The notes under the pieces: model-generated
The model's input: the letters and a program-made list of their open reading frames with translations, nothing else
Told to the model about the DNA's origin: nothing
The model's database searches: none
Program-made: the position numbers and the translations under genes
Source: Candidatus Izemoplasma sp.
GTDB taxonomy: Bacteria > Bacillota_I > Bacilli_A > Izemoplasmatales > Izemoplasmataceae
Assembly (NCBI GenBank): GCA_018402725.1
Contig: JAGYII010000007.1
Location: 1 to 64,000 of the forward strand
Direction: 5' to 3'
DNA length: 64,000 bases
Shown: positions 5,424 through 27,134 of the stretch, piece by piece
How positions within the stretch are numbered: the stretch's first letter is position 1
Layout: every line of letters starts with the position of its first letter

Positions 5424-6769
5424 ATTTTGATTGGATGATAAATTCTGTTAAGGCCTTAACGACGCGTCCCGTCGCCCCTTTTTTCTTCATAGGTAACCCC
5501 AGCCACATCGAGGTGAATCCAGGGGACTTTCGAATCAACAAAGTGATTTAAGAAGGCCGCTGACACTTGCACCCGCCGTTCTAACCCCACTATTTTTAAG
5601 GTCAGCCACATGTGACTTTAAGCCTTCGATATGGGATTCATCTTGGGGCAGTTGCCACATCTTTTCTTCAGAGGTTGCCGCTGAAGCGATGAGTGCATTT
5701 AAATAATCAGGATGATTGGTAAAGGCCCCGATGTGTTCAGACCCTAACGCCGCAATGACGGCGCCGGTCAAGGTCGCCATATCAATGATACGATCGGCTT
5801 TTTGTTGCTGAGCATACCATAAGGCATCCGCTAAGGTTAAACGTCCTTCGGCATCGGTGGAGACGATTTCAATACTGGTGCCATCGGCCGCAATCACAAT
5901 ATCATCAGGGACAATCGCATGATCGCCTATTTTATTATCCGTGGCTAAGATAATTCCATCGGCATTGACCTTGGCTTCAAGGTGGAGCATGGAAGATTCC
6001 CATCGACATTGGCCGCCCCACCCATGTCCATTTTCATGGTTGGCATTGAGGTCGAAGGTTTTAATGAATACCCTCCGTATCATACATAACGCCTTTACCG
6101 ACGACGGCGGTTAAAGGAGAAGCCTCCGTTACGGTATTTGATGTGAATCAGTTTTGGGGGAATCAATGAGCCTTTGTTAACGGCTAAGAAAGCTCCCATT
6201 CCCATTTTTCAATCGCTTCTTTATCGAGTATTTCACCGTGGTGTGAGGATACTTAGCATAGGTTTTTGCGAGATCGGCTAAATCCACTGCATTTAGATAA
6301 TTACTTGGTGTATTGACTAAATCTTTAGTGACATTAATCGCTTCACTGATCACTTGGCTAAATTTTAGAGGGTCTTTATGCTCTAAATAAAGGTTAAAGA
6401 AGAGGGGGTTAAAGCTTTTTTACGCGGGACTTTACTGAATTGATAAGTCCCGAGTGAGAAGGCTTCATAGATAAAGTTTGCGGGTTCAAAACTATCTAAG
6501 ACAACGGATGTTTCTTCTTTAAGGCTTAATAATTGAGCCACCACTTTAAGCGATGACTTAAGCGATTTAACAGATTCATTCTTGACAACATAGACCCGTT
6601 TAAAATCCCCCTCCACTTCAAGGGTGAGTGAGGTCACATTTTCTGTGAGTAACTCTTTACGGGCTTCAATCATCGCTTGTAGATTCTTTAAGAGTGGGTA
6701 TGCACTGGGATATCCAACAATGAGGCTTTTTGATGAGTTTAACGGACACGCTTGATAATGAATTTTCAT
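5422..6769 (-). pseudogene. pepA: Leucyl aminopeptidase (M17), frameshifted
   Basis: Read across frames, this is a complete M17 leucyl aminopeptidase of normal size, which removes N-terminal residues from peptides using two metal ions. The start is MKIHYQACP at 6769 behind an AGGAG site. An intact stretch runs to 6383, then pieces in different frames give LVNTPSNYLNAVDLADLA, MGMGAFLAVNKGS, a metal-site region ending KMDMGGAA, and then 5535-6083 with STDAEGRLTLADAL (the NTDAEGRL signature) and DMATLTGA. The tail KALTEFIIQSK ends at 5422. At least four frame changes lie between 5535 and 6383. All catalytic segments survive, so sequencing indels are as likely as a dead gene. Confidence 0.8.
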
Positions 6770-6833
6770 AGGTTCTCCTGTAGACGTTATTTTAAGCATT
6801 ATACCAAATCGGTGCCTTATAACTCAACGGATA

Positions 6834-7614
6834 CTAAGGTCGCCTTGTTTTGAACGTGAGTAAGGTTTTAAAGCCGGTGGTCTTTAAAAAGGCTTTAGCT
6901 TGATATCAAAATCGGCCCCGACATCTTTGGGATTATGCGCATCAGACAGTGGAGATCGCCGCCCCCTTTTTCAAAATAACGCTTGATAATATCTAAATTA
7001 GGGGTTTTATTTTGATAGTCTTTCCGGTAAGGACTGGTATTAAGTTCTAGGACTTTATTTTTTGTGATTAGGGCTTCAAAGATCGCATCTAAGACGGGAT
7101 AAAAAGGGGTGAGATCGACCGCATCCGTTTTTTCTAAACTGTATCTAAAGATGTAGTCAAGATGAGCTAAAATATGGAAACCATCGAACGTTTTAATCCC
7201 CTCTAAGACTGTTTCAAAGTATCGTTGATAACTTTGAGTAAGGGTCTTATCTTTAAAGAATTCACCCCCATAAGGATCGAGCCCATCAATGTAATGGACG
7301 GATAATAAGACGGTATCAAAAGGATGCGTCGCGACCAGTTGTTTCATCGCCTCTAAAACATGGGGTTGGTACCCAAGTTCAACCCCCATTTGAAGGAGAG
7401 TTTCGGTACTTTCTTGCGCCTTATGAAGTCGTCTTTTAAAACTTATAAAGTCAGGGACTTGATTAAATAACGGAACCGGACAATCAAAATCTAAGTGATC
7501 AGTAAAGGTGATCGCCTTTACTTTTTTTTGATTGAGGAGGGTGAGGTAGTTTTCAAACGTTGCTTCTTTAGAGGCATCGGGAGAATAGACTGTATGCGTG
7601 TGCTGGTCAATCAT
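6834..7614 (-). CDS. hisJ: PHP-type histidinol-phosphatase, C-terminus frameshifted
   Basis: Dephosphorylates L-histidinol phosphate, the penultimate step of histidine synthesis, in the cytoplasm. The PHP metal-binding motifs are clear: [12 protein letters not shown] at the N-terminus, [15 protein letters not shown] and LAHLDY. The open frame stops at 6895, but after a one-base shift near 6950 the expected [16 protein letters not shown] follows. A second shift near 6900 gives [20 protein letters not shown] and a stop at 6834, restoring about 260 residues, the normal HisJ length. The ATG overlaps the end of hisIE by 8 bases, so this is the last gene of the his operon. The frameshifts may be sequencing errors. 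Confidence 0.82.
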
Positions 7615-8230
7615 GGGTTTTTCCTTGTCTATTTTTTAACTGGTTGTAGACCGCGTCTAAAGCGATCTCTTTTTGATAAAGCATGACCGTCATGTGATAA
7701 AAAAGATCACTGACTTCATTAATCAAATTTTCTTCGTTTTCTTCTTTGGCGGCGATGATGACTTCCGCACTTTCTTCGCCGACTTTTTTTAGCGTCTTGT
7801 TAAGACCTTCGGTTAATAGATATTGGGTGTAAGAACCTTCCATCGGATGTTCAGCCCGGTCTTTAACCGTGGCGTAGATCTCATCTAAGACACTGGCTGA
7901 TGCCTGAATTTCTTCACCAAAAGCGCGGTGAAAACAGCTTTTTTGAAGGGTATGACACGCCACTCCTTTTTGTTCGACAAGAAGTAAAAGCGTATCTTCA
8001 TCACAATCATAACGGAGTGATTTTAAAGTTTGGGTATGCCCAGAGGTTTCCCCTTTTTTCCACAAGGCTTTTCGGGACCGTGAATAAAAGGTGACCTCTT
8101 GAGTGTTTAATGTAATCTCTAGAGATTCTTTATTCATATAAGCAAGCATTAAAACGTCTTTGGTGGACGCATCTTGAATGATGGCGGGCACTAATCCATC
8201 GTCGTTGAATTTAATCACATCAATATTCAT
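7607..8230 (-). CDS. hisIE: Bifunctional phosphoribosyl-AMP cyclohydrolase / phosphoribosyl-ATP pyrophosphatase
   Basis: Catalyses steps 2 and 3 of histidine synthesis. The N-terminal HisI domain (about residues 1-110) has [27 protein letters not shown] and the metal-site run [20 protein letters not shown]; the C-terminal HisE domain (about 115-207) has [14 protein letters not shown] and [13 protein letters not shown]. The 207-residue fusion is the usual bacterial arrangement. Its ATG overlaps the hisF stop in an ATGA junction, indicating translational coupling. Confidence 0.97.
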
Positions 8231-8985
8231 GGGTGTCTCCTTACCGGAATACCTTCTTTATAAAGCGCTTCTTTAACGTCTTGAATTGAAATGGTTTCAA
8301 AATGAAAGACACTGGCCGCTAACAATCCCTCAGCCCCCGCTTTAGCTGCCTCTACAAAATGGTGAATCTCACCCGCGCCCCCTGAGGCAATGACAGGGAC
8401 AGGGACGAGGTTTGAAATCATCTTTATGAGGAGGGTATCATACCCTTTTAATTCGCCATCCGTATCAATCGTATTTAGAACGATTTCACCGGCCCCAAGG
8501 GCGACGGCTTTTTTGATCCATTCGATCACATTGAGGTCCGTTTTTTGCCGGCCCCCATGCGTATACACTAAATATTCATCGCCTTCTTTTTTAGCATCCA
8601 CCGACAAGACGATGCACTGAGAACCAAATCTTAAAGCCCCCTCTTTAATCAATTGGGGGTTCAAGACGGCCGCGGTATTGATTGATATCTTATCCGCCCC
8701 TTGTCTTAGAATAAAATGCATGTCTTCAACCGAAGAAATGCCACCGCCCACACAAAAAGGGATATTGATTTGTTGGGCAACTTGAGAAACAAAGGCATGA
8801 CTTATTTTTCGTTCATCTGAAGATGCAGTGATGTCATAAAAGACGAGTTCATCGGCGCCTTCATTCGAATATCTTAAGGCTAAAGTTGCGGGGTCAGCAA
8901 CATCTTTAAGGCTTTTAAATTGTTGCCCTTTGACGACCCTTCCTTGATTCACATCTAAACAAGGGATGATTCTTTTTGCGAGCAA
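8227..8985 (-). CDS. hisF: Imidazole glycerol phosphate synthase cyclase subunit
   Basis: TIM-barrel subunit that uses ammonia from HisH to convert PRFAR to imidazole glycerol phosphate and AICAR. The two catalytic aspartates are in place (IIPCLDV near residue 11 and SVDAKKEG near 130), with the phosphate loops CVGGGIS and IASGGAG. The 252-residue length is standard. Its start lies within the end of hisA (31-base overlap), as is common in compact his operons. HisH, its obligate partner, is two genes upstream. Confidence 0.97.
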
Positions 8986-9686
8986 GAAATTGCCTCCTTC
9001 AAAGGCAATATTTCTTCATACATGGCTTTCCCTAAGATGGCTTCCTCGACCCCAAACGCTTTTAAGGCTTGAATGTCTTTGCATCGAGTCAAACCGCCAC
9101 TTGCCATCACTGACAATAGAGTAATGTTTTTAATCTTGTCATAAAGTCTAATATTGGGTCCTTTTAACATCCCATCGGTTTGAATATCTGTAATCATCAC
9201 CTTAAGGTCTTTAAAAGTCGATAACACATCTAAAAATGTCCATAAAGAAATGTCAGAAGATACTTGCCAGCCATGGGTCATAATGATCTCATTTTTAATG
9301 TCTAAAGCGACCACCACTCGGTTAGGATACTCTTTAACGAATGCTTTAAGACCGCCTACATCTTGAATCGCTAACGATCCTAACACGACGGTGTCGACGC
9401 CATGATTCAAGTAGTCTCTGGCAATATCGAAATTCCGTATCCCACCGCCCACTTGAATCGGGATATTGACCGATTTCACCATCTCAAGGATGAGATCACG
9501 GTGCGCAATGACGCCTTTTTCAGTCGCTTCTAAATCAACGACGTGAATTCGACTGGCGCCATCACTTTCAAAACGCTTGACCATCGATAAGGGATCGATT
9601 GGGTAGTGTTTGCGCGTCGCAAACACCCCTCTTTCAAGACGGGTAATTTTTTGCTTATATAGATCCATTGACGGAATGATATTCAT
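8955..9686 (-). CDS. hisA: ProFAR isomerase
   Basis: TIM-barrel isomerase of step 4, ProFAR to PRFAR. Motifs include IIPSMDLYKQKITRL (catalytic Asp near residue 8), IQVGGGIRN, ITDIQTDGMLKGPN (second catalytic Asp) and MASGGLT. I chose ATG 9686 because the protein then begins MNIIPSMDL as the family does; a longer frame to 9701 adds only MGGGL. The DG after QT and the absence of TrpF features support HisA over PriA. It overlaps hisH by 32 bases and hisF by 31. Confidence 0.95.
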   Translation of the reverse strand: MNIIPSMDLYKQKITRLERGVFATRKHYPIDPLSMVKRFESDGASRIHVVDLEATEKGVIAHRDLILEMVKSVNIPIQVGGGIRNFDIARDYLNHGVDTVVLGSLAIQDVGGLKAFVKEYPNRVVVALDIKNEIIMTHGWQVSSDISLWTFLDVLSTFKDLKVMITDIQTDGMLKGPNIRLYDKIKNITLLSVMASGGLTRCKDIQALKAFGVEEAILGKAMYEEILPLKEAISCSQKESSLV

Positions 9687-10287
9687 CAATCCACCTCCCA
9701 TAATTTTTTAAAAGTTGTTCGCCCACACGGGCACTTTTTTCAGGGTGAAATTGCATACCGATGACATTTTTATGGGCCACAATCGCTGGGATGATTTCCC
9801 CGTGTGTCGTTGTGGCCACCCAGTCATCTTGGGTGGAAACGGCATAGTAAGAATGAACAAAATATACATAGCTTTCTATAAGAATACCTAAAAGAAGAGG
9901 CGATGTCGTGTGAAATGTTAAATTATTCCATCCCATGTGGGGAATTTTTGGTGCTTTGACCAACGGTTCCACCGTTCCTTTTAAGAATCCAAGGCCTTGA
10001 TGGGTCCCGTGCTCTAAAGATGTTTCATATAAGAGTTGCATCCCTAAACAAATTCCAAGCAGCGGTTTACCGGCCTTGACGTGGGCTTTTAATAAAGGGA
10101 TAAAGTTTTTTTCGTTTAAGCGTTTCATCGCCGGTTCAAAGGCGCCGACCCCGGGTAAAACTAACGAAGTGGCCTTTTCTATAATGGAAGGATCTTGGGT
10201 GATGATGCTTTCTAATCCTGCGCGTTCAAACCCACTTTGTAAACTCGCTAGGTTACCCACCCCATAATCTAGAATAACATGAATCAT
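9655..10287 (-). CDS. hisH: Imidazole glycerol phosphate synthase glutaminase subunit
   Basis: Class I glutamine amidotransferase that supplies ammonia to HisF. The catalytic triad is visible: nucleophile Cys in LLGICLGMQLLYE, His and Glu in IGMQFHPEKSA. Further family marks are DYGVGNLASLQSGFERAG and LPGVGAFEPAM. The 210-residue length is typical. The ATG forms a 4-base ATGA overlap with the end of hisB, so expression is coupled to the genes before it. Confidence 0.97.
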   Translation of the reverse strand: MIHVILDYGVGNLASLQSGFERAGLESIITQDPSIIEKATSLVLPGVGAFEPAMKRLNEKNFIPLLKAHVKAGKPLLGICLGMQLLYETSLEHGTHQGLGFLKGTVEPLVKAPKIPHMGWNNLTFHTTSPLLLGILIESYVYFVHSYYAVSTQDDWVATTTHGEIIPAIVAHKNVIGMQFHPEKSARVGEQLLKNYGRWIDEYHSVNGSI

Positions 10288-10862
10288 AAGAGTCCTTTAG
10301 TCGAGGGTAGTCCTTGGGATGAATGTTTCAAAGCCCGTCCTAAACTCTTACCGAACGCTTTAAAAATCGCTTCAGCTTGATGGTGGGCATTTTGACCATA
10401 AAACAAACTCACATGCGCCGTGATTTTAGCGTTCAAGACGAGGGCTGTAAAAAACTCACGGATATTTTCAAGGGCAAATTCACCGACACGGTCCCGTGTA
10501 AATTGAGCTTCAAAGACTAAAAAGGGTCGTCCTGATAAATCAATCACGGAACGGGCTAAACTATCATCCATCGGAACATAGGCATGGCCGTATCGTTCTA
10601 ACCCGGTCTTATCTTCTAAGGCTTCTTTTAAAAGTTCACCGATCACAATGCCGACATCTTCAACGGTATGATGATCATCGACGTGGAGATCTCCTTTGGC
10701 TTTAACAACCAATCCGACCTGGGCATGAAAGGCCATCAAGGTCAGCATATGATCAAAAAAAGGAAGGCCTGTTTCAACCGTGATATGAGACGCATCTTTC
10801 AGGTTTAAGCTGACTTCAATGGCAGTCTCTTTGGTCATTCGGTTTTTATTTAGCTTCATCAA
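10284..10862 (-). CDS. hisB: Imidazoleglycerol-phosphate dehydratase
   Basis: Mn-dependent dehydratase of step 6. Duplicated metal-binding motifs are present: FFDHMLTLMAFHAQ with DDHHTVEDVGIVIGE in the first half, and FFTALVLNAKITAHVSLFYG with NAHHQAEAIFKAFG in the second. At 192 residues it is the monofunctional bacterial form without a phosphatase domain, matching the separate PHP phosphatase at the operon end. Two in-frame Met codons open the frame (MMKLN), so the start is uncertain by one codon. It overlaps hisC by 17 bases. Confidence 0.97.
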   Translation of the reverse strand: MMKLNKNRMTKETAIEVSLNLKDASHITVETGLPFFDHMLTLMAFHAQVGLVVKAKGDLHVDDHHTVEDVGIVIGELLKEALEDKTGLERYGHAYVPMDDSLARSVIDLSGRPFLVFEAQFTRDRVGEFALENIREFFTALVLNAKITAHVSLFYGQNAHHQAEAIFKAFGKSLGRALKHSSQGLPSTKGLL

Positions 10863-11877
10863 GAATCTCCTTTAAGACCTTTAGGGTTTGCGTCATTTCA
10901 AGTTCTTGGCCGATGGTGATACGAATGTAGGGTTGATCAAACGTAAAGGGTCTAACTAAGATGTTTCTTTCTTTTAATTTTTCAAATAAATCATAAGAAT
11001 TTTTTAAGAAGATAAAGTTGGCATGACTATCATAGACCGAAAGCCCCAAAGCGAGACAGCCTTTTTTAAAGCGTTCCCGGCGTTCAATCATGGTTTTTAC
11101 ATAGTCACTGACTTCCCCGTACCGCTGAATCGCCGCTAAACCAATGGTTTGGGTCAGTTGATTGACGTTATAAGGGGTTTTAGAGAGGGTCAGAGCTTCA
11201 ATGATAGTTTTATTAGAAACCGCGTAGCCTAAACGAACCGAAGCCAACCCATAGGCTTTTGAAAAGGTGCGAGTCACAATTAGATTCGGATAGTCATTCA
11301 CCCGGTTTACAAAAGAGGTGACGTCTTTAGCAAACTCAATGTAAGCCTCATCCAGCAAGACCAGTGCATCGGTCGCTGCGAGGATGGTTTCAATCGCCTC
11401 TTTAGGAATTAAACCCCCCGTTGGATTATTGGGAGAACATAAGATAACGAGTCGAGGGTTTTCTTTTTTTAAGGCGTCTAAGAAACGTTCTAAGTTAAAT
11501 GAAAAATCTTCATTTAAAGGGACTTCAAGATAATGGAGTTCGTGAATCTTAGCATAAAACCCATACATCACAAAGGTCGGTCCGGCGGTTAAAACCGTTT
11601 GACCTTTTTCCACCGTACTTTTCATCAACCATTCGAGTATTTCAGAAGAACCTGATCCGATGAGGAGTTGATTATCTTCGAGTTGAAACGTCTTTGCGAT
11701 GGCTTTTTTTAAATCTCTCGCGTGATTATCTGGGTAACGCTCAAAAGGAACATTAAGTTGAAAGCCATCTTCAAAGAGATAATTTTCCGCTTCATTGGAA
11801 TCGAGTTTAATCGCCTGGTTTCTCTCAAGGGTCGGATAGGCTCTTAATTCACTTAAGGCGGGTTTTAAGATGTTCAT
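10846..11877 (-). CDS. hisC: Histidinol-phosphate aminotransferase
   Basis: PLP-dependent fold-type I aminotransferase that makes histidinol phosphate from imidazole acetol phosphate and glutamate. Diagnostic pieces are KLDSNEAE, the SPNNPTGGLIP loop, LLDEAYIEF, and RTFSKAYGLASVRLGYAV carrying the PLP lysine (about residue 207). The 343-residue length is normal. Its start abuts the hisD stop without a gap, consistent with coupled translation. Confidence 0.96.
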   Translation of the reverse strand: MNILKPALSELRAYPTLERNQAIKLDSNEAENYLFEDGFQLNVPFERYPDNHARDLKKAIAKTFQLEDNQLLIGSGSSEILEWLMKSTVEKGQTVLTAGPTFVMYGFYAKIHELHYLEVPLNEDFSFNLERFLDALKKENPRLVILCSPNNPTGGLIPKEAIETILAATDALVLLDEAYIEFAKDVTSFVNRVNDYPNLIVTRTFSKAYGLASVRLGYAVSNKTIIEALTLSKTPYNVNQLTQTIGLAAIQRYGEVSDYVKTMIERRERFKKGCLALGLSVYDSHANFIFLKNSYDLFEKLKERNILVRPFTFDQPYIRITIGQELEMTQTLKVLKEILDEAK

Positions 11878-13153
11878 TCAAGACTCCTTTCGTACTTGGA
11901 TGCTATAGGCATGACCATCGAGCTGTTCTTGATGAGCAAGGGTAATGACGTCACTGGCGACGTCATTAAAGGCTTCTTTTGAATACTGTAAAACACTGGT
12001 CCGTTTTAAAAAGTCATACGTCGATAATCCCGAGGCAAACTTAGCCGTTCCAGAGGTCGGTAACGTATGATTAGGCCCTCCCATGTAATCACCAATCGCT
12101 TCAGGGGTATAAGGCCCCAAAAAGATTGCCCCGGCATGATGAATATAGTTTAAGTGATAAAGCGGATCATCAAGGATAATTTCAAGATGTTCAGGAGCGA
12201 TGGCGTTCACATACGCATACGCTTCTTCTAAAGAAGCCACTTTAATTGCAAGGCCTCGTTCTTTTAATGAGACTTCAATGATAGCTTTTCTTGTCCGGTT
12301 ACTCATTTGATGAACCAGTTCTTGATTGACTTGGTCAATCAAGGCATCACTTAAAGTGACGAGGATGGATTGAGCCAGGGAGTCATGTTCAGCCTGAGCG
12401 ATTAAATCAGCGGCCACCCATTTCGGGTTCGCAGTTTCACCGGCTAAGATTAAAACTTCTGAGGGCCCCGCAAAATGATCGATGCCAATCACGGAAGACA
12501 GTTTTTGTTTCGCTAATGCTACATAAATATTCCCAGGACCCACTACCTTATCCACCGCCGGAATACTCTTTGTTCCGTAGGCTAAAGCGGCGATGGCTTG
12601 AGCGCCGCCCACTTGGTAGACTTCTTTGACTCCGCACAAATAAGCCGCCGCAAGAACCGAAGGGTCGATCCCTTCTTTTTGGGGAGGGGTGACCATGATG
12701 ATGTTTTTAACGCCCGCCACTTGTGCGGGGATGGCGTTCATTAAGACACTGGATGGATACCGCGCAGTCCCGCCTGGAATGTAAATGCCCACCGATTCTA
12801 TGGGTGTGACGATTTGCGCTCTTAAAAGCTGAGAATTTCCATCTTGAATCGTCGGGTATTTTTGAAGTTGGTGATAAGATGTAATGTTTTCTTTGGCTTT
12901 GATTAAGGCTTTTTTAAGGGCTTCTGGGCATTCATCAAAGGCTTTTTTTAAGGCTGCCTCAGGCACCTTAAAGGTTTCAACATCGACCCCATCAAACTGT
13001 TTAGTCAAGACGTCTTAAAGCCTCATCTTGATTTAAGTAAACATCTTCAATGATTGCTTGAACCGGTTGATCGTAGGTTTTTAAAGCCGAAAAACGTTGA
13101 TGTTTTCTTGATTGGATGAGGGTGTCTAGGGACTCGGTCCAACGCTTAAGCAT
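11878..13153 (-). CDS. hisD: Histidinol dehydrogenase, one frameshift near its N-terminus
   Basis: Zn-dependent NAD enzyme performing the last two oxidations to histidine. The long frame 11878-13008 opens with TKQFDGVDVE and lacks about 45 residues. These are found one frame away, from ATG 13153 (MLKRWTESLDTLIQ to LNQDEALRRL); joining DEALRRL to TKQFDGV needs removal of one base near 13010 and gives a normal length of about 423. Core motifs are intact: VGPGNIYVALAKQ, GIDHFAGPSEVLI, the Zn-site AQAEHDSLAQ, and EAIGDYMGGPNHTLPT. ATG 13153 overlaps hisG by 8 bases. A sequencing indel is the simplest explanation; the TTG at 13008 is unlikely as a real start. Confidence 0.93.
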
Positions 13154-13754
13154 GAGAATTCCTTTCCGCTTTTAAAAGCAGAGATTCAATCGCCTCTAAT
13201 TGAAAACGGTAACGGGCCTTATTTGCAAAGACGATGGCTTTTGAATCTTGGATGACATCTAATATTATAAGGCCGTTTGCTTTTAAGGTCGAGCCTGTTT
13301 CAACGATATCAACAATCACATCAGAGAGTCCGACGACCGGCGCAAGTTCTACGGATCCTTGTAAGGGAAGAAGCGTAATACTTTGTTGCTTATTTTTAAA
13401 GTATTTTTTGGTTAGATTGGGGTATTTTGTGGCGACTTTTAACCCCTCTTTTAACGCAGTATCTGTCTTTTCAAACCCTGCGAGTACGAGTTGACAGGCT
13501 CCAAAAGGTAGTTCTTTTAGGCGGTATACATCGGGGTCAGACTCATCAAGAGTATCTTGTCCGACAATCCCGATATCTGCAATCCCAGCCATCACATAGG
13601 TAATCACATCACTGGGTTTAACCCAAAGCACTTGACATGTTTCATTCTCAAAAGAGAGCTTACGTTCATCGAAGGGATTGTTTAAAGGACTTAATAAATA
13701 ATCCCACGATAAATCGCCCAGTCTTCCTTTGGGTAAAGCGATCGTTAGTTTCAT
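13146..13754 (-). CDS. hisG: ATP phosphoribosyltransferase, short form
   Basis: Catalyses the committed step of histidine synthesis, PRPP + ATP to phosphoribosyl-ATP. Motifs: IALPKGRL at the start, GQDTLDES, and the PRPP loop IVDIVETGSTLKANGL. At 202 residues this is the short HisG(S) form that lacks the C-terminal regulatory domain and needs HisZ for activity and histidine feedback; hisZ is immediately upstream with a 4-base overlap. Short-form plus HisZ is an established pairing. Confidence 0.96.
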   Translation of the reverse strand: MKLTIALPKGRLGDLSWDYLLSPLNNPFDERKLSFENETCQVLWVKPSDVITYVMAGIADIGIVGQDTLDESDPDVYRLKELPFGACQLVLAGFEKTDTALKEGLKVATKYPNLTKKYFKNKQQSITLLPLQGSVELAPVVGLSDVIVDIVETGSTLKANGLIILDVIQDSKAIVFANKARYRFQLEAIESLLLKAERNSHA

Positions 13755-14650
13755 CCACTTACCTCCATTAAGTCATCTAGGGTCAATGAAAAACCAATGG
13801 CTTCACCGTTCATTCGTTTCACGACATAACGGCCCCCTTTAATGAGGACTTTGGGACTATTTAAAGCATATATTTGAAACATAACCCCCGAATAGTAAGA
13901 CCAAGTACTCATCCCGCTAAAGTCAAAGACGACGGTCGCTGATTGAAAGCTTTCAAAGGGCTCAACACTTTTTAAAATCGATTCGAAACGATCTAAATAC
14001 CCCAGTCCGTTTAGTTTGTTTTTGAGTGTCAGTAACGATGAGTTAGGCTCGGTCAAGGTTTCTATCAGGCTTTCTAACGAAGTACTCAAATTTTGATTTA
14101 GGAGCCACGGTTTTAACTGATCAAAGGCTTTGGTTTTTAAAAGGGTCTTAAACGTGGCACTTTGTTCGCTATTAAAACCGGCTAAAGAGACGATTAAGGG
14201 AAGGACCTGGGCATGGGAAACTTCACAAATCAAGGCTAAATTAAAGGTTTGATTAAACTGATTAAGGGTACTGACTAAGTGGCGCTCACCCTCAGGTCTA
14301 GGGGCGTTGAAAAATTCAAACCCAAACTCTTTTTTAGCTTCAAGGCGTTCTTTATCTTGGTAAAAAGTAGAGGCATAATAAGACACTTTTAAAGGACCAT
14401 CCGAAGGCTTCCACTGAAGTTGATCCATCACGGATGTCGTAAGGTCCGGTCTTAATACGAGTAAGCGTCCTTCAGGGTTAGATAGTTTAATCCAATCTTT
14501 GGGGTCGTTTAAAGGTTGATCATTCCTAAAGTCATCATAATCAATGAAATAAGGGGGTTCAATTAACGTATAATCGAGTCCCTCTGCCATCGACAGTAAG
14601 GTTTTGAAGAGTTCGGTTTGACGCGATTGTTGTTGTAACCAAGTAGCCAT
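13751..14650 (-). CDS. hisZ: ATP phosphoribosyltransferase regulatory subunit
   Basis: Catalytically inactive class II histidyl-tRNA synthetase paralogue that assembles with HisG(S). Class II core traces are seen: LLVLRPDLTTSVM (motif 2 region) and a C-terminal GGRYVVKRMNGEAIGFSLTLDDLM (motif 3-like). At 299 residues it is short for a HisRS and has no anticodon-binding domain. The ATG follows a strong AGGAGG site and is the first gene after the leader terminator, so its transcription should be gated by the attenuator. Confidence 0.9.
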   Translation of the reverse strand: MATWLQQQSRQTELFKTLLSMAEGLDYTLIEPPYFIDYDDFRNDQPLNDPKDWIKLSNPEGRLLVLRPDLTTSVMDQLQWKPSDGPLKVSYYASTFYQDKERLEAKKEFGFEFFNAPRPEGERHLVSTLNQFNQTFNLALICEVSHAQVLPLIVSLAGFNSEQSATFKTLLKTKAFDQLKPWLLNQNLSTSLESLIETLTEPNSSLLTLKNKLNGLGYLDRFESILKSVEPFESFQSATVVFDFSGMSTWSYYSGVMFQIYALNSPKVLIKGGRYVVKRMNGEAIGFSLTLDDLMEVSG

Positions 14651-14666
14651 ATCATTTCCTCCTAAT

Positions 14667-14697
14667 AAAAAAAGCCAGGGTCGTTGACCTCTGGCTT
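14667..14697 (-). terminator. His-operon attenuator terminator
   Basis: Reading toward hisZ, an AGCCAG-A-GGTC arm pairs with GACC-CTGGCT around an AACG-type loop and is followed by seven Ts, ending about 17 bases before the hisZ ATG. Because the his promoter lies about 140 bases further upstream, this terminator sits inside the leader rather than after a gene. Confidence 0.85.
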
Positions 14698-14746
14698 AAA
14701 ACAAAATCATAAGCGAGATACAAGACCAACATCATCAATGTGATAA

Positions 14747-14771
14747 AGGCTTGTACCTAATGTACAAACCT
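14747..14771 (-). promoter_or_regulatory. Leader hairpin overlapping the leader-peptide stop codon
   Basis: The transcript can fold AGGTTTGTAC with GTACAAGCCT around a short loop, a ten-pair stem with one G-U. The 5' arm covers the stop codon of the His-rich leader peptide, so a ribosome stalled on the His codons or finishing at the stop would affect it. I could not define a convincing alternative pairing with the terminator's 5' arm by eye. Confidence 0.7.
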
Positions 14772-14817
14772 AAGTGGTTGAATGATGATGATGGACAGAG
14801 ATTAAAATTGTAAACAT
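14770..14817 (-). CDS. Histidine-rich leader peptide of the his operon
   Basis: A 15-codon frame reads MFTILISVHHHHSTT, with four consecutive CAT histidine codons and a TAG stop. A GAGGT site lies 7-8 bases before the ATG. Its placement between the his promoter and a terminator just before hisZ is the layout of classical enteric amino-acid attenuators, where ribosome stalling at His codons signals low charged tRNA-His. The frame, stop and spacing are seen; the regulatory role is inferred. Low-GC Gram-positive bacteria more often use T-box leaders for his genes, and no T-box sequence is visible here. Confidence 0.82.
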   Translation of the reverse strand: MFTILISVHHHHSTT

Positions 14818-14837
14818 AATTGACCTCAATTTTGTGT

Positions 14838-14867
14838 AGTATATCACAGGCCTTGAAATCGATGCAA
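14838..14867 (-). promoter_or_regulatory. Promoter of the his operon
   Basis: TTGCAT (complement of 14862-14867) and TATACT (complement of 14838-14843) are separated by 18 bases, placing the transcript start a few bases before the leader-peptide ribosome binding site. Confidence 0.7.
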
Positions 14868-14950
14868 TCATTTTAGCTCACGAAGAATGAACAAAGAAAT
14901 TCGACTGAAATAAAGGTATAATAACTCTATGACACATGAGTTGAGTGCGG

Positions 14951-16111
14951 ATGAAAATAGCTTTGTTTTCTGACACTTACTTCCCAATTGTAAATGGAAT
15001 TAGTGTGAGTGTATCTTTATTAGCGTCAGAGTTGAGAAAAAAGGGTCATGACGTGACTATTTTTACTCATGACCACGACCTAGCTCACCCTGAAAAAGGA
15101 GTCATTCGTTTCAAAGGGTTTAGACCGCCTAAACGGTCTCTTCAAGAATTTAGAATTGGTCGGGTGACTAAACAAAAAATCAAAAAAGTCATGGAAGAGC
15201 ATTTTGACATAATCCATTGTCATACAGAGCTAACAATTGGCCGGCTTGGTAAAAAAGTGGCAGAGATTTCAAAGACGCCCTTTGTGTATACCTATCACAC
15301 GATGTATGAAGATTATGTCCACTATATCTCCAAGTACTTTAAAAATCTGACCCGAAAGTTTGTAATTTTTTACAGTGTTCGCTTTGCGAATGCGTCGGCC
15401 TATTTAATTGCGCCCACTGATAAAGTGGCTTCTAAGTTTAGAGGATACGGCTACCAAGGAGACCTTGAAGTCATTCCGACGGGAATAGATCTTGAGCAAT
15501 TTAAACAATCATCCTTAGATAAAACAAAACTTCAAGAGATCAAAGAAGCCTTTGCTAAACCCTTTCCTCACGGCCTTTTTGTGGGCCGAGTCTCTCATGA
15601 AAAAAACATTGAGGCTTTACTTAAAACCATCAAAGACTGTAAAGAAGAAAAGCACCCCTGGCATCTAACCGTGATTGGGGATGGCCCTGCAAGAGCTTCT
15701 TTAGAAGCGTATGTTAAAACACATCAGTTAGAAGATAACGTCTTTTTTGCGGGAATGATTAAGCCTTCTGAGATTGCCTACTACTATCAAATTGCTGATT
15801 TCTTTGTGAGCTTTTCGACGACGGAAACACAAGGCCTTACCTATATCGAAGCGATGGCCGCTGATTTACCGGTGATTGCTCAAAGTGATCAACATTTGAA
15901 GGCCTGGATCAAAGAAGGAGAATCAGGGTTTTTAATTGATTCGGTCGAATCCTTTAAGGTCCTCTTAAAAAGAATCATCGAAGAACCTACGCTTCTAACC
16001 GATCTTAAACCCTCTGAAATGGAACTTTTACAACCTCTGAGCGCCTTGACTTATGCAACATCCATCGAAGCGTTATATCAAAAAGTAATCGCTTCTAAAA
16101 AAGTGAGATGA
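14951..16111 (+). CDS. Family 4 glycosyltransferase, probably glycolipid-forming
   Basis: GT-B retaining glycosyltransferase resembling the UDP-glucose/diacylglycerol glucosyltransferases of Acholeplasma and Gram-positive bacteria, which act at the inner membrane face to make mono- or diglycosyl-diacylglycerol. The N-terminal Rossmann part (KIALFSDTYFPIVNGISVS) is followed by VIPTGIDLEQF, FVGRVSHEKNI and the donor-site run SFSTTETQGLTYIEAMAADLPVIA. I start at ATG 14951 because the family begins MKIALFSD; an in-frame GTG at 14945 is possible. A short frame from ATG 14929 overlaps this start in another frame and could couple translation. TATAAT lies near 14916. The stop overlaps the next ATG (ATGA). 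The acceptor is inferred. Confidence 0.82.
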   Translation: MKIALFSDTYFPIVNGISVSVSLLASELRKKGHDVTIFTHDHDLAHPEKGVIRFKGFRPPKRSLQEFRIGRVTKQKIKKVMEEHFDIIHCHTELTIGRLGKKVAEISKTPFVYTYHTMYEDYVHYISKYFKNLTRKFVIFYSVRFANASAYLIAPTDKVASKFRGYGYQGDLEVIPTGIDLEQFKQSSLDKTKLQEIKEAFAKPFPHGLFVGRVSHEKNIEALLKTIKDCKEEKHPWHLTVIGDGPARASLEAYVKTHQLEDNVFFAGMIKPSEIAYYYQIADFFVSFSTTETQGLTYIEAMAADLPVIAQSDQHLKAWIKEGESGFLIDSVESFKVLLKRIIEEPTLLTDLKPSEMELLQPLSALTYATSIEALYQKVIASKKVR

Positions 16112-23693: not shown

Positions 23694-23732
23694 TAGAACA
23701 TGAAAAAAGATGGCTTTTTTAAGCGATCGTTT

Positions 23733-23834
23733 TCTTCTTCCATCCAGACTATACGGTCGGTGTGGGAGTTTCACCCACTCGTGCTTGCGCTCGCGGACTT
23801 TACCGCCGGTCGGGAATTGCACCCTGCCCTGAAG
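23733..23834 (-). ncRNA. FMN riboswitch (RFN element)
   Basis: The minus strand carries the conserved RFN blocks in order: CAGGGTGCAATTCCCGACCG, GCGGTAAAGTCCGCGAGC, a variable arm, GTGGGTGAAACTCCCACACC, then GACCGTATAGTCTGGATGG. It stands directly upstream of ribD and the terminator hairpin, so FMN binding is expected to turn the operon off. This matches the family consensus closely by eye. Confidence 0.97.
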
Positions 23835-23850
23835 AAATATGTACGTCAAT

Positions 23851-24989: not shown

Positions 24990-27134
24990 ATGTCAAATCT
25001 AACCCCTGGTCATAATCAGAAAAATAAAAAAAGAAGAAAAAAGATTATTTTTTGGTTTTTTATAAGCTTGTTTCTTGTATTAAGTACATTTACGGTACTT
25101 TTACTGGCTCAAAACAATGAGCCAAATTCATATGTAAAAGTAAACGAAGCTTATTATATCTTAAACGAAGGTGAATCCACCTTAGTTACCTTTGAGGCTT
25201 CCCAAGATTTAGGCGCTTTTACGTATACATCCAATGATACATCCGTGGTTCAATTTATCGAAAACCGTTTAATCACGGTTGGGACAGGTTCAACAACGAT
25301 TACCGTAAGTAGTCAATCCAATCCTTCCATATTCCAAACGGTTTCGGTCATCGTCAGAGAACGGGTGATTGAACCCAATGTTCCTGAGGTTCCCGTAGAA
25401 CCGGAAGTTCCCGTTGATCCCGAGGGCCCGGTTGAACCTGAGCCTGAATTACCGGAAGAGCCTGTTAATCCAGAACCGGAAGTACCAGTTGACCCTGAAC
25501 CTGAAGTGCCAGTCGATCCGGATGATGAGAGTGTTGTCACTCCTCCTACCATCTATACCATCACCATCACCAATGAAACGGGTGCGGTGATTACCACCCT
25601 TGAACTTGAAGAAGGGTCTTTCATCACGACTTCAGGACTAGATCTCCCAGAAACCTTCAAAGGCTTTTATTTTGAAGGGGAAACTTGTACAGACGAACCG
25701 TTTGATTTAGAGACGCCTATTACTGAAAACGTAACGCTGATTCAAGCGTCTTTTAACGATCAAGCGCCCTGTCTACAACTGGACTACATTGTCTTAAGTG
25801 GTAAACCCATTGCGGGGACAGAACTTACCGTAGATATATTCCCCCTCGGTGCCAACGTCACCATCAGCTGGTACACCTCGGTCAACAACAGAACCTACCG
25901 TGAGATCACTGGAGAATCCGGTTCAACCTTTACCGTAAGACCCGAAGACAGTGGGAAGTTCATTCGTGTCTATGTAGTCAGTGATTCCAATCCACCGGTC
26001 GTCAGATATGACACCATCAAACTGGATGTCTTTGGGACGGTCAGTGATGGTGGCGGAAGTCAAGGTGGAAGTAGTTCGGCATGTACGGTATTTACAGACA
26101 TTAATAGCACGAGTGATTTTATAAACATGACTCCAAATGGGTGTTATAAATTGACTTCAAACATTGATTTATCAGGATTGAATATATTGAGTCAAAGTGC
26201 ACTTAATTTCACGTTTCAAGGCACTTTGGATGGAGACAACTATACCATAGAAAATTTATCCATTAGTAGTGCAGTTATTCAGGTAGGGTTATTTTCAAAA
26301 CTGGATGGTGCTACCATTAAAAACTTAACTCTGTCTGCGTTTAATATTACTGGTAGTAATTATGTGGGTGGAATTGCGGGTTTTGCAGAAAGTACTAATA
26401 TATCTAACATAAATTTAGTTAGAAGTAATATCAACGCATCACTTTTTACAGGTGGACTAGTTGGGTATAGCACTAACTCAGCAATTTTAAATTCTACATT
26501 TGATGGAACCGTATCAGGAAGCACCGATCAAGTCGGTGGACTGGTTGGGTATAGCTTTAACTCAGCAATTTTAAATTCTACATCAAACGGGACCGTTTCT
26601 GGATTGAATTCTGTAGGTGGACTAGTTGGACAGAGCCAATACTCAATTATCTCAAATTCCGCATTTGATGGAACCGTTTCTGGGAGATTTTCCGTAGGGG
26701 GCTTAGTCGGGGTTCTTAGGTTCGAATCAATTATTGAAAGTTCGTTCAATACAGGTTTAGTGATATCTACAAAACTTACTAGTGGCTTAGCTTACTCAGG
26801 AGGCTTAGCCGGATACATGAATCATAGTAGTCAAATCTTAAACTCGTATAATACGGGTAATGTATCTTCTTCTGGTCAACGTGTTGGGGGTATTGTTGGC
26901 GTTGTTTCGGATGGAACTGCTGAAAATCCAAATCTAATTTTCAATAGCTATTCAGCTTCCAATGTCACAGGTTCAGGTATTGTGGGGGGAGTTCTAGGCT
27001 TTATATTTGATACAACCCCAGTTACATTTACAGATGTATTTTGGAATACAGATATCGGTTCATTATCGAACGGCACGGAAATACAGTATCTGAGCTGTTA
27101 CAAATGGTTCAATCACAGGAATTACATCCACTGA
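24990..27134 (+). CDS. Membrane-anchored surface protein with Ig-like and GLUG repeats (intact first part)
   Basis: Large cell-surface protein. After a basic N-terminus (KNKKRRKK) one hydrophobic segment (IIFWFFISLFLVLSTFTVLL) anchors it. Next come a BIG2-like Ig domain (about residues 50-115), a Pro/Glu linker built of PVEPEVPVDPE-type units (about 120-175), a domain similar to Listeria-Bacteroides repeats, another Ig-like domain, a Gly/Ser spacer, and several GLUG motifs of the GGLVGYS...ILNSTFDGTVSG type. The ATG has an AGGAG site. After about 27080 the frame is lost: the last residues (SCYKWFNHRN) are out of frame, while SAVTNGSITGITSTEMKT is read in the next one. Adhesion is a family-level guess. 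Confidence 0.8.
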   Translation: MSNLTPGHNQKNKKRRKKIIFWFFISLFLVLSTFTVLLLAQNNEPNSYVKVNEAYYILNEGESTLVTFEASQDLGAFTYTSNDTSVVQFIENRLITVGTGSTTITVSSQSNPSIFQTVSVIVRERVIEPNVPEVPVEPEVPVDPEGPVEPEPELPEEPVNPEPEVPVDPEPEVPVDPDDESVVTPPTIYTITITNETGAVITTLELEEGSFITTSGLDLPETFKGFYFEGETCTDEPFDLETPITENVTLIQASFNDQAPCLQLDYIVLSGKPIAGTELTVDIFPLGANVTISWYTSVNNRTYREITGESGSTFTVRPEDSGKFIRVYVVSDSNPPVVRYDTIKLDVFGTVSDGGGSQGGSSSACTVFTDINSTSDFINMTPNGCYKLTSNIDLSGLNILSQSALNFTFQGTLDGDNYTIENLSISSAVIQVGLFSKLDGATIKNLTLSAFNITGSNYVGGIAGFAESTNISNINLVRSNINASLFTGGLVGYSTNSAILNSTFDGTVSGSTDQVGGLVGYSFNSAILNSTSNGTVSGLNSVGGLVGQSQYSIISNSAFDGTVSGRFSVGGLVGVLRFESIIESSFNTGLVISTKLTSGLAYSGGLAGYMNHSSQILNSYNTGNVSSSGQRVGGIVGVVSDGTAENPNLIFNSYSASNVTGSGIVGGVLGFIFDTTPVTFTDVFWNTDIGSLSNGTEIQYLSCYKWFNHRNYIH

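Follow-up and report, generated by a model that had tools for sequence, protein, structure and literature searches.

A putative histidine-codon attenuator precedes the his operon in an Izemoplasma genome and in its relatives

Results

The his operon and the elements of its leader

We analysed a stretch of 64,000 nucleotides from a Candidatus Izemoplasma sp. contig, hereafter the window, to which all coordinates refer. Its minus strand carries a complete histidine operon in the gene order hisZ-G-D-C-B-H-A-F-IE. The first gene, hisZ (ATP phosphoribosyltransferase regulatory subunit, 13751..14650, with its ATG at 14650), matches NCBIfam TIGR00443 with an E-value of 2.5e-35, and hisG, hisD, hisC, hisB, hisH, hisA, hisF and hisIE, likewise found by NCBIfam matches, occupy 7607..13754. 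The hisZ match is below its curated cut-off and that of hisA slightly under, but both E-values are clear. The same strand also carries an FMN riboswitch at 23728-23840 (RF00050, 105.9 bits) and, at 5535-6083 and 6383-6799, two adjacent frames that, judged by eye, resemble parts of a single leucyl-aminopeptidase gene and may reflect a frameshift or a pseudogene.

An earlier note on this DNA had described a promoter, a GAGGT site, a 15-codon frame with four His codons, a strong hairpin over the stop codon of that frame and an intrinsic terminator before hisZ. We located these on the minus strand in the order extended -10 element, GAGG, His frame, hairpin, terminator and hisZ. The promoter claim holds in part: the extended -10 element TGATATACT is present at 14838..14846, while its -35 element (TTGCAT, 18 nt upstream) is weak and a mechanical consensus promoter scan of the window did not list the site. 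The form TGnTATAnT recurs in relatives, where 23 of 35 loci have a site like it, scoring at least 7/8, ahead of the leader, compared with 11% in shuffles. The Shine-Dalgarno GAGG (14824..14827) is followed by the leader peptide frame MFTILISVHHHHSTT and its stop codon (14770..14817), with four consecutive CAU control codons for His (CATCATCATCAT, 14782..14793). The run CAYCAYCAYCAY occurs twice in the 64 kb, against an expectation of 0.08; the second occurrence lies on the plus strand at 25559-25570 (CATCACCATCAC).

Downstream of the His codons, five segments can pair in alternative ways. Segment B (AGGUUUGUAC, 14762..14771) begins inside the leader stop codon and forms the hairpin B:C (14771-14747) with segment C (GGUACAAGCCU, 14747..14757). 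C can instead pair with segment D (CUUGUAUCUCGCUU, 14711..14724) through CUUGUAUC, and D in turn, with its bases 14723-14711, can pair with segment E (AAGCCAGAGGUC, 14686..14697) as a putative antiterminator. E is also the 5′ arm of the intrinsic terminator E:F (14697-14667), for which segment F (GACCCUGGCUU and the U-run, 14667..14682) provides the 3′ arm and the tail. This terminator is part of the predicted fold, and a mechanical terminator scan of the window found none at its settings despite the plain stem and T-run. The 201-nt leader region has a minimum free energy of -54.5 kcal/mol, compared with -36.2 +/- 4.0 for shuffles (z -4.6), and in its minimum-energy fold the His codons are paired with GAUGAUG in the spacer between C and D.

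The leader is conserved upstream of hisZ

hisZ is present in 24 of the 90 genomes of the order. Among loci with upstream sequence (one, L032, is cut by a contig end), the layout upstream of hisZ is near-universal and consists of a His-run peptide, GGUUUG, GAUACAAGCCU, CUUGUAUC and then a terminator of variable sequence. A covariance model built from 29 leaders gave 29 matches in the order, distributed over 20 of its 90 genomes (E 2.9e-10 in the window's own genome), and, in a sample of 395 genomes from the class, matches in 34. Outside the order we inspected 14 loci (families f10, f12 and f15), all of which have a His-run peptide and a downstream hisZ. At one locus (L066, 1640-2300) the leader terminator and hisZ are about 600 bases apart, which sets this locus off from the others inspected. 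A phylum-wide search added no further groups, with every match falling in genomes already found by the class search, and scanning 84,980 species for the leader pattern returned 11 matches, all in Mollicutes, Tenericutes, Acholeplasmatales, Izimaplasma or Haloplasma records.

Two loci are exceptions. The hisZ genes of L011 (genome G002, of the same genus as the window) and L031 (G086) have no leader, and directly upstream of both lie a yerC/TrpR-family gene matching TIGR02531 (hisR) and operator-like TTTA/TAAA boxes. The earlier note had named absence of the His-run frame from close relatives as an observation that would speak against the leader, and G002 does lack it; the leader is nevertheless found in the same-genus genome G003 and in 18 genomes from other genera of the order, and its absence from G002 therefore looks like a replacement and not an artefact. 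Conservation is the strongest support that the predicted leader is real.

Competing pairings covary and are cognate-specific

In the enteric his leader, segments A to F adopt either B:C with D:E or C:D with E:F, and A pairs with B. We examined the corresponding pairings in 44 leaders, all of which encode a His-run peptide. In the alignment of these 44, which is fitted to the model structure, 94.8% of the cells of C:D and E:F are paired, 13 of the 16 pairs show double changes, the covariation is 0.572 (0.207 when shuffled and at most 0.130 when slid) and 129 cells carry double changes, against 31 in shuffles. A cross-check on an unfitted MAFFT alignment of 29 leaders gave the same result at lower strength (87.6% paired, covariation 0.347 vs 0.201). 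Double changes occur in all eight pairs of the E:F stem. RNAalifold on the MAFFT alignment recovers C:D only, presumably because the sequences and spacings of the terminators differ. The earlier note had proposed relatives as a check for conserved His runs and covariation in two stems, and this is what we find for the His runs and for C:D with E:F; the B:C hairpin is paired in 92.7% of cells, with letters mostly conserved, and adds little covariation of its own (two of its six pairs are invariant).

Because the spacing of D and E varies, we scored this helix by permuting partners and not per column. Cognate D:E pairs have a mean energy of -10.5 kcal/mol compared with -8.1 for permuted pairs, a difference reached in 0 of 20000 permutations of the 44 leaders, in 0 of 100000 for the set of 29 and likewise for a thinned set of 21, in a procedure that leaves relatedness in place. 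The helix is spelled quite differently at the same place in different leaders: UCUAAUGA/UCAUUAGA in f15, GUAUCUAUC/GGAUAGAUAC in several f1 leaders, UAUCCGU/ACGGAUA in the second leader of L015 and GGUCU-ACC/GGU-AGACC in that of L027. When leaders are compared one by one with their own shuffles, the signal for D:E is weak in many of them, and the window's own duplex is no better than with shuffled D (p 0.51); the family-wide permutation is the only decisive comparison. The assignment of the window's putative antiterminator rests on its position and on the family. A first by-eye candidate, GUUGGUCUU with GAGGUCAAC, was dropped in favour of D with E after relatives were compared. The earlier note had found the antiterminator not obvious and suggested a geometry other than the enteric one; the relatives reveal D:E, and the core alternation of B:C and D:E against C:D and E:F is the enteric one.

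Predicted folds depend on the position of the ribosome

We folded nascent transcripts ending immediately ahead of F after removing the part under and behind the ribosome, a proxy that uses equilibrium folding of the nascent chain and assumed footprint edges. For the window, a ribosome stalled on the His codons gives 12.4 expected pairs for D:E, 8.9 for B:C and 0.1 for C:D, and a ribosome at the stop codon gives 5.1, 0.0 and 8.6, respectively. The stalled-ribosome folding that the earlier note had suggested thus predicts a shift to B:C and D:E when the ribosome is stalled and to C:D when it is at the stop. Across the 44 leaders, B:C is higher in the stalled state in 37 and C:D is higher at the stop in 38; D:E gains pairs on stalling in 27 leaders and loses them in 6 (Wilcoxon p 1.3e-4, with kinship ignored). 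In these predictions it is the position of the ribosome that selects the fold.

We therefore consider it highly probable (about 0.9), on the basis of sequence comparison and modelling, that the window element is a ribosome-mediated transcription attenuator of the his operon. What computation establishes is the set of elements, their conservation, the covariation of C:D and E:F, the family-wide specificity of D:E and a predicted dependence on ribosome position. From these we infer that the leader peptide is translated, that ribosomes stall on it and that transcription responds to histidine. Under such a mechanism, the level of charged tRNA-His would be sensed as a short His-rich peptide is translated. 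At a low level, the ribosome would wait at the CAU run upstream of B, which would allow B:C to pair; D would then be free for E, no terminator would form and RNA polymerase would continue into hisZ. With ample charged tRNA-His, the ribosome would proceed to the stop codon and cover B, and C would capture D; with D held by C, E would be left for F, and the E:F hairpin and the U-run would end transcription.

Codons before the His run may set the default state

In 22 of the leaders, a CAAG in the region of the codons immediately preceding the His run (the peptide often reads ...QVH or ...QAH) resembles C and pairs with D. The cognate energy of this A:D pairing is -15.7 compared with -13.0 for permuted partners (0 of 20000 permutations), and the effect is weak in the other 22 leaders (263 of 20000). 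Since A can hold D directly, termination would be favoured when the leader is untranslated. The opposite default, in which the untranslated RNA would fold into B:C and D:E and be read through, unlike the enteric his leader, fits the window's own nascent fold, which without a ribosome has 9.8 pairs for D:E and a weak A:D of 0.6 pairs. We regard such a default-on attenuator as less likely than not, if a serious candidate, given that A:D is able to hold D in many relatives and that in the window's minimum-energy fold the His codons pair with the C-D spacer.

Other modes of control

Three other readings compete with attenuation by a leader peptide. The operon could be governed by a tRNA-sensing T-box, with the His run a coincidence. 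A T-box senses uncharged tRNA and a leader peptide senses charged tRNA. The window's genome does have T-boxes, with eight matches, seven of which precede valS, serS, thrS, asnS, alaS and pheS (identified by eye from translations) and hisS (NCBIfam TIGR00442; L005, G000:C23:78192-78367). None of the eight lies at the his operon, the T-box model (RF00230) has no match at gathering score anywhere in the window nor at E up to 10 within 14500-15000, and the His run is kept in all 44 leaders, which makes control by a T-box here close to negligible. The earlier note's central claim of a His-codon leader and not a T-box is thus upheld by the conserved His runs, the covarying stems, the cognate-specific antiterminator and the lack of a T-box match, and the genome would have two RNA sensors for histidine, a T-box at hisS and a leader peptide at the biosynthetic operon. 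Its further premise, that T-boxes are the usual his control in low-GC Gram-positives, is contradicted by the main text of PMC9413887, which counts HisR sites in 395 Firmicutes genomes and T-boxes in 129.

Alternatively, the terminator could attenuate at a fixed level or close a different transcript, with the His frame being a small ORF that has no regulatory role; operons are often preceded by intrinsic terminators. This we judge very improbable, because the pairings that would exclude the terminator are conserved and cognate-specific, and because the His run is fixed in its position before B while the other residues of the peptide vary. Control mainly by a protein, either a HisR-like repressor or an RNA-binding protein for which the leader is a mere target, draws on the nine relatives in which HisR and its operator stand alongside the leader. 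We nevertheless hold this to be very improbable for the window, since its own genome (about 86% complete) has no match to hisR (TIGR02531) and the window promoter lacks the HisR operator TTTA-N6-TAAA / cacTTTAnnnnnnTAAAgtg, its best site having two core mismatches. Ribosome-mediated attenuation remains our preferred reading.

HisR operators and tandem leaders in relatives

Using the operator consensus given in the main text of PMC9413887, we found a HisR-type operator at most 37 bases from the leader start in 9 of 9 leader-bearing genomes with hisR and in 0 of 26 without it, so that operator and hisR are concordant in 35 of 35 genomes. Eight of the nine operator cores are perfect TTTA-N6-TAAA and the ninth (G025) has one mismatch. 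The loci that combine attenuator and operator at one promoter are L021, L022, L024, L026, L029, L030, L064, L066 and L075.

Furthermore, nine genomes of the order (G039 to G045, G067 and G070) carry two complete leaders in series upstream of hisZ, at L013, L014, L015, L017, L018, L019, L023, L025 and L027. Between the T-run of the first leader and the start codon of the second lie 8 to 26 bases, too few for a separate promoter, and this layout suggests that the second leader would be reached by read-through of the first. hisR is present in none of the nine tandem genomes compared with 6 of 12 single-leader genomes (Fisher 0.019, ignoring phylogeny and with tandems in three genera only), which suggests that the second attenuator may compensate for the lost repressor. 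A division of labour in which copy 1 has A:D and copy 2 does not was rejected, copy 2 pairing more strongly in four of the nine pairs.

As a tentative reading, to which we give somewhat less than even odds, these observations may reflect an exchange of regulatory layers at one promoter: HisR alone, HisR with an attenuator, one attenuator (as in the window) and two in series, the second replacing the lost repressor. In the same reading, the codons that lead into the His run, which frequently encode Gln-Val or Gln-Ala, would be kept mainly for RNA pairing with D, as an A:D protector compared with the enteric A:B.

Discussion

The window element shares with the enteric his leader a run of His codons, the same competing pairings and a terminator before the first his gene. 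The two differ in sequence, and the first gene here is hisZ; the Rfam model of the enteric leader (RF00514, His_leader) finds nothing here, either at its gathering score or at E up to 10. A further difference concerns many relatives of the window, in which D is the partner of the segment ahead of the His codons, in place of the enteric A:B.

Within the Firmicutes, the main text of PMC9413887 describes His attenuators in the B. cereus group, Peptostreptococcaceae and Erysipelotrichales, and His leaders of Bacillus hisZ and hisS* have been reported (PMC2965389). As far as these accounts go, they share with the window element a run of 3 to 5 His codons and, ahead of hisZ or the his operon, hairpins for termination and antitermination. 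The window element thus belongs to a known kind, as Firmicutes His leaders are already published. Family f15, which our covariance model matches, is probably the published Erysipelotrichales group. The main text of PMC9413887 does not name the window's order and does not mention tandem attenuators. It states that the search for attenuators was confined to genomes lacking both HisR and T-boxes, and a combination of attenuator and HisR would therefore have been invisible there.

Units in series have precedents in the tandem attenuators of Salmonella mgtCBR (PMC3641672) and in the tandem T-boxes at several operons noted in the main text of PMC9413887. These resemble the relatives of the window in placing two units in series before one operon; in the relatives, unlike those cases, a single biosynthetic operon is preceded by two His-codon leaders, and the window itself has a single leader. 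In the main texts of the open-access literature we found no report of His attenuation in the window's order, which is not proof of novelty. Also unreported in those texts are tandem His attenuators (nine genomes, none with HisR), an attenuator combined with a HisR operator (nine genomes) and pairing of the codons before the His run with the antiterminator strand, as seen in many relatives.

Taken together, the predicted attenuator would extend ribosome-mediated control of his genes to an order that is related to the Mollicutes and has small genomes, and the putative antiterminator of this leader is made explicit with the backing of many sequences. The relatives provide a natural series, from repressor only through repressor with attenuator and one attenuator to two attenuators, which allows testing whether serial attenuators replace a repressor and sharpen the response.
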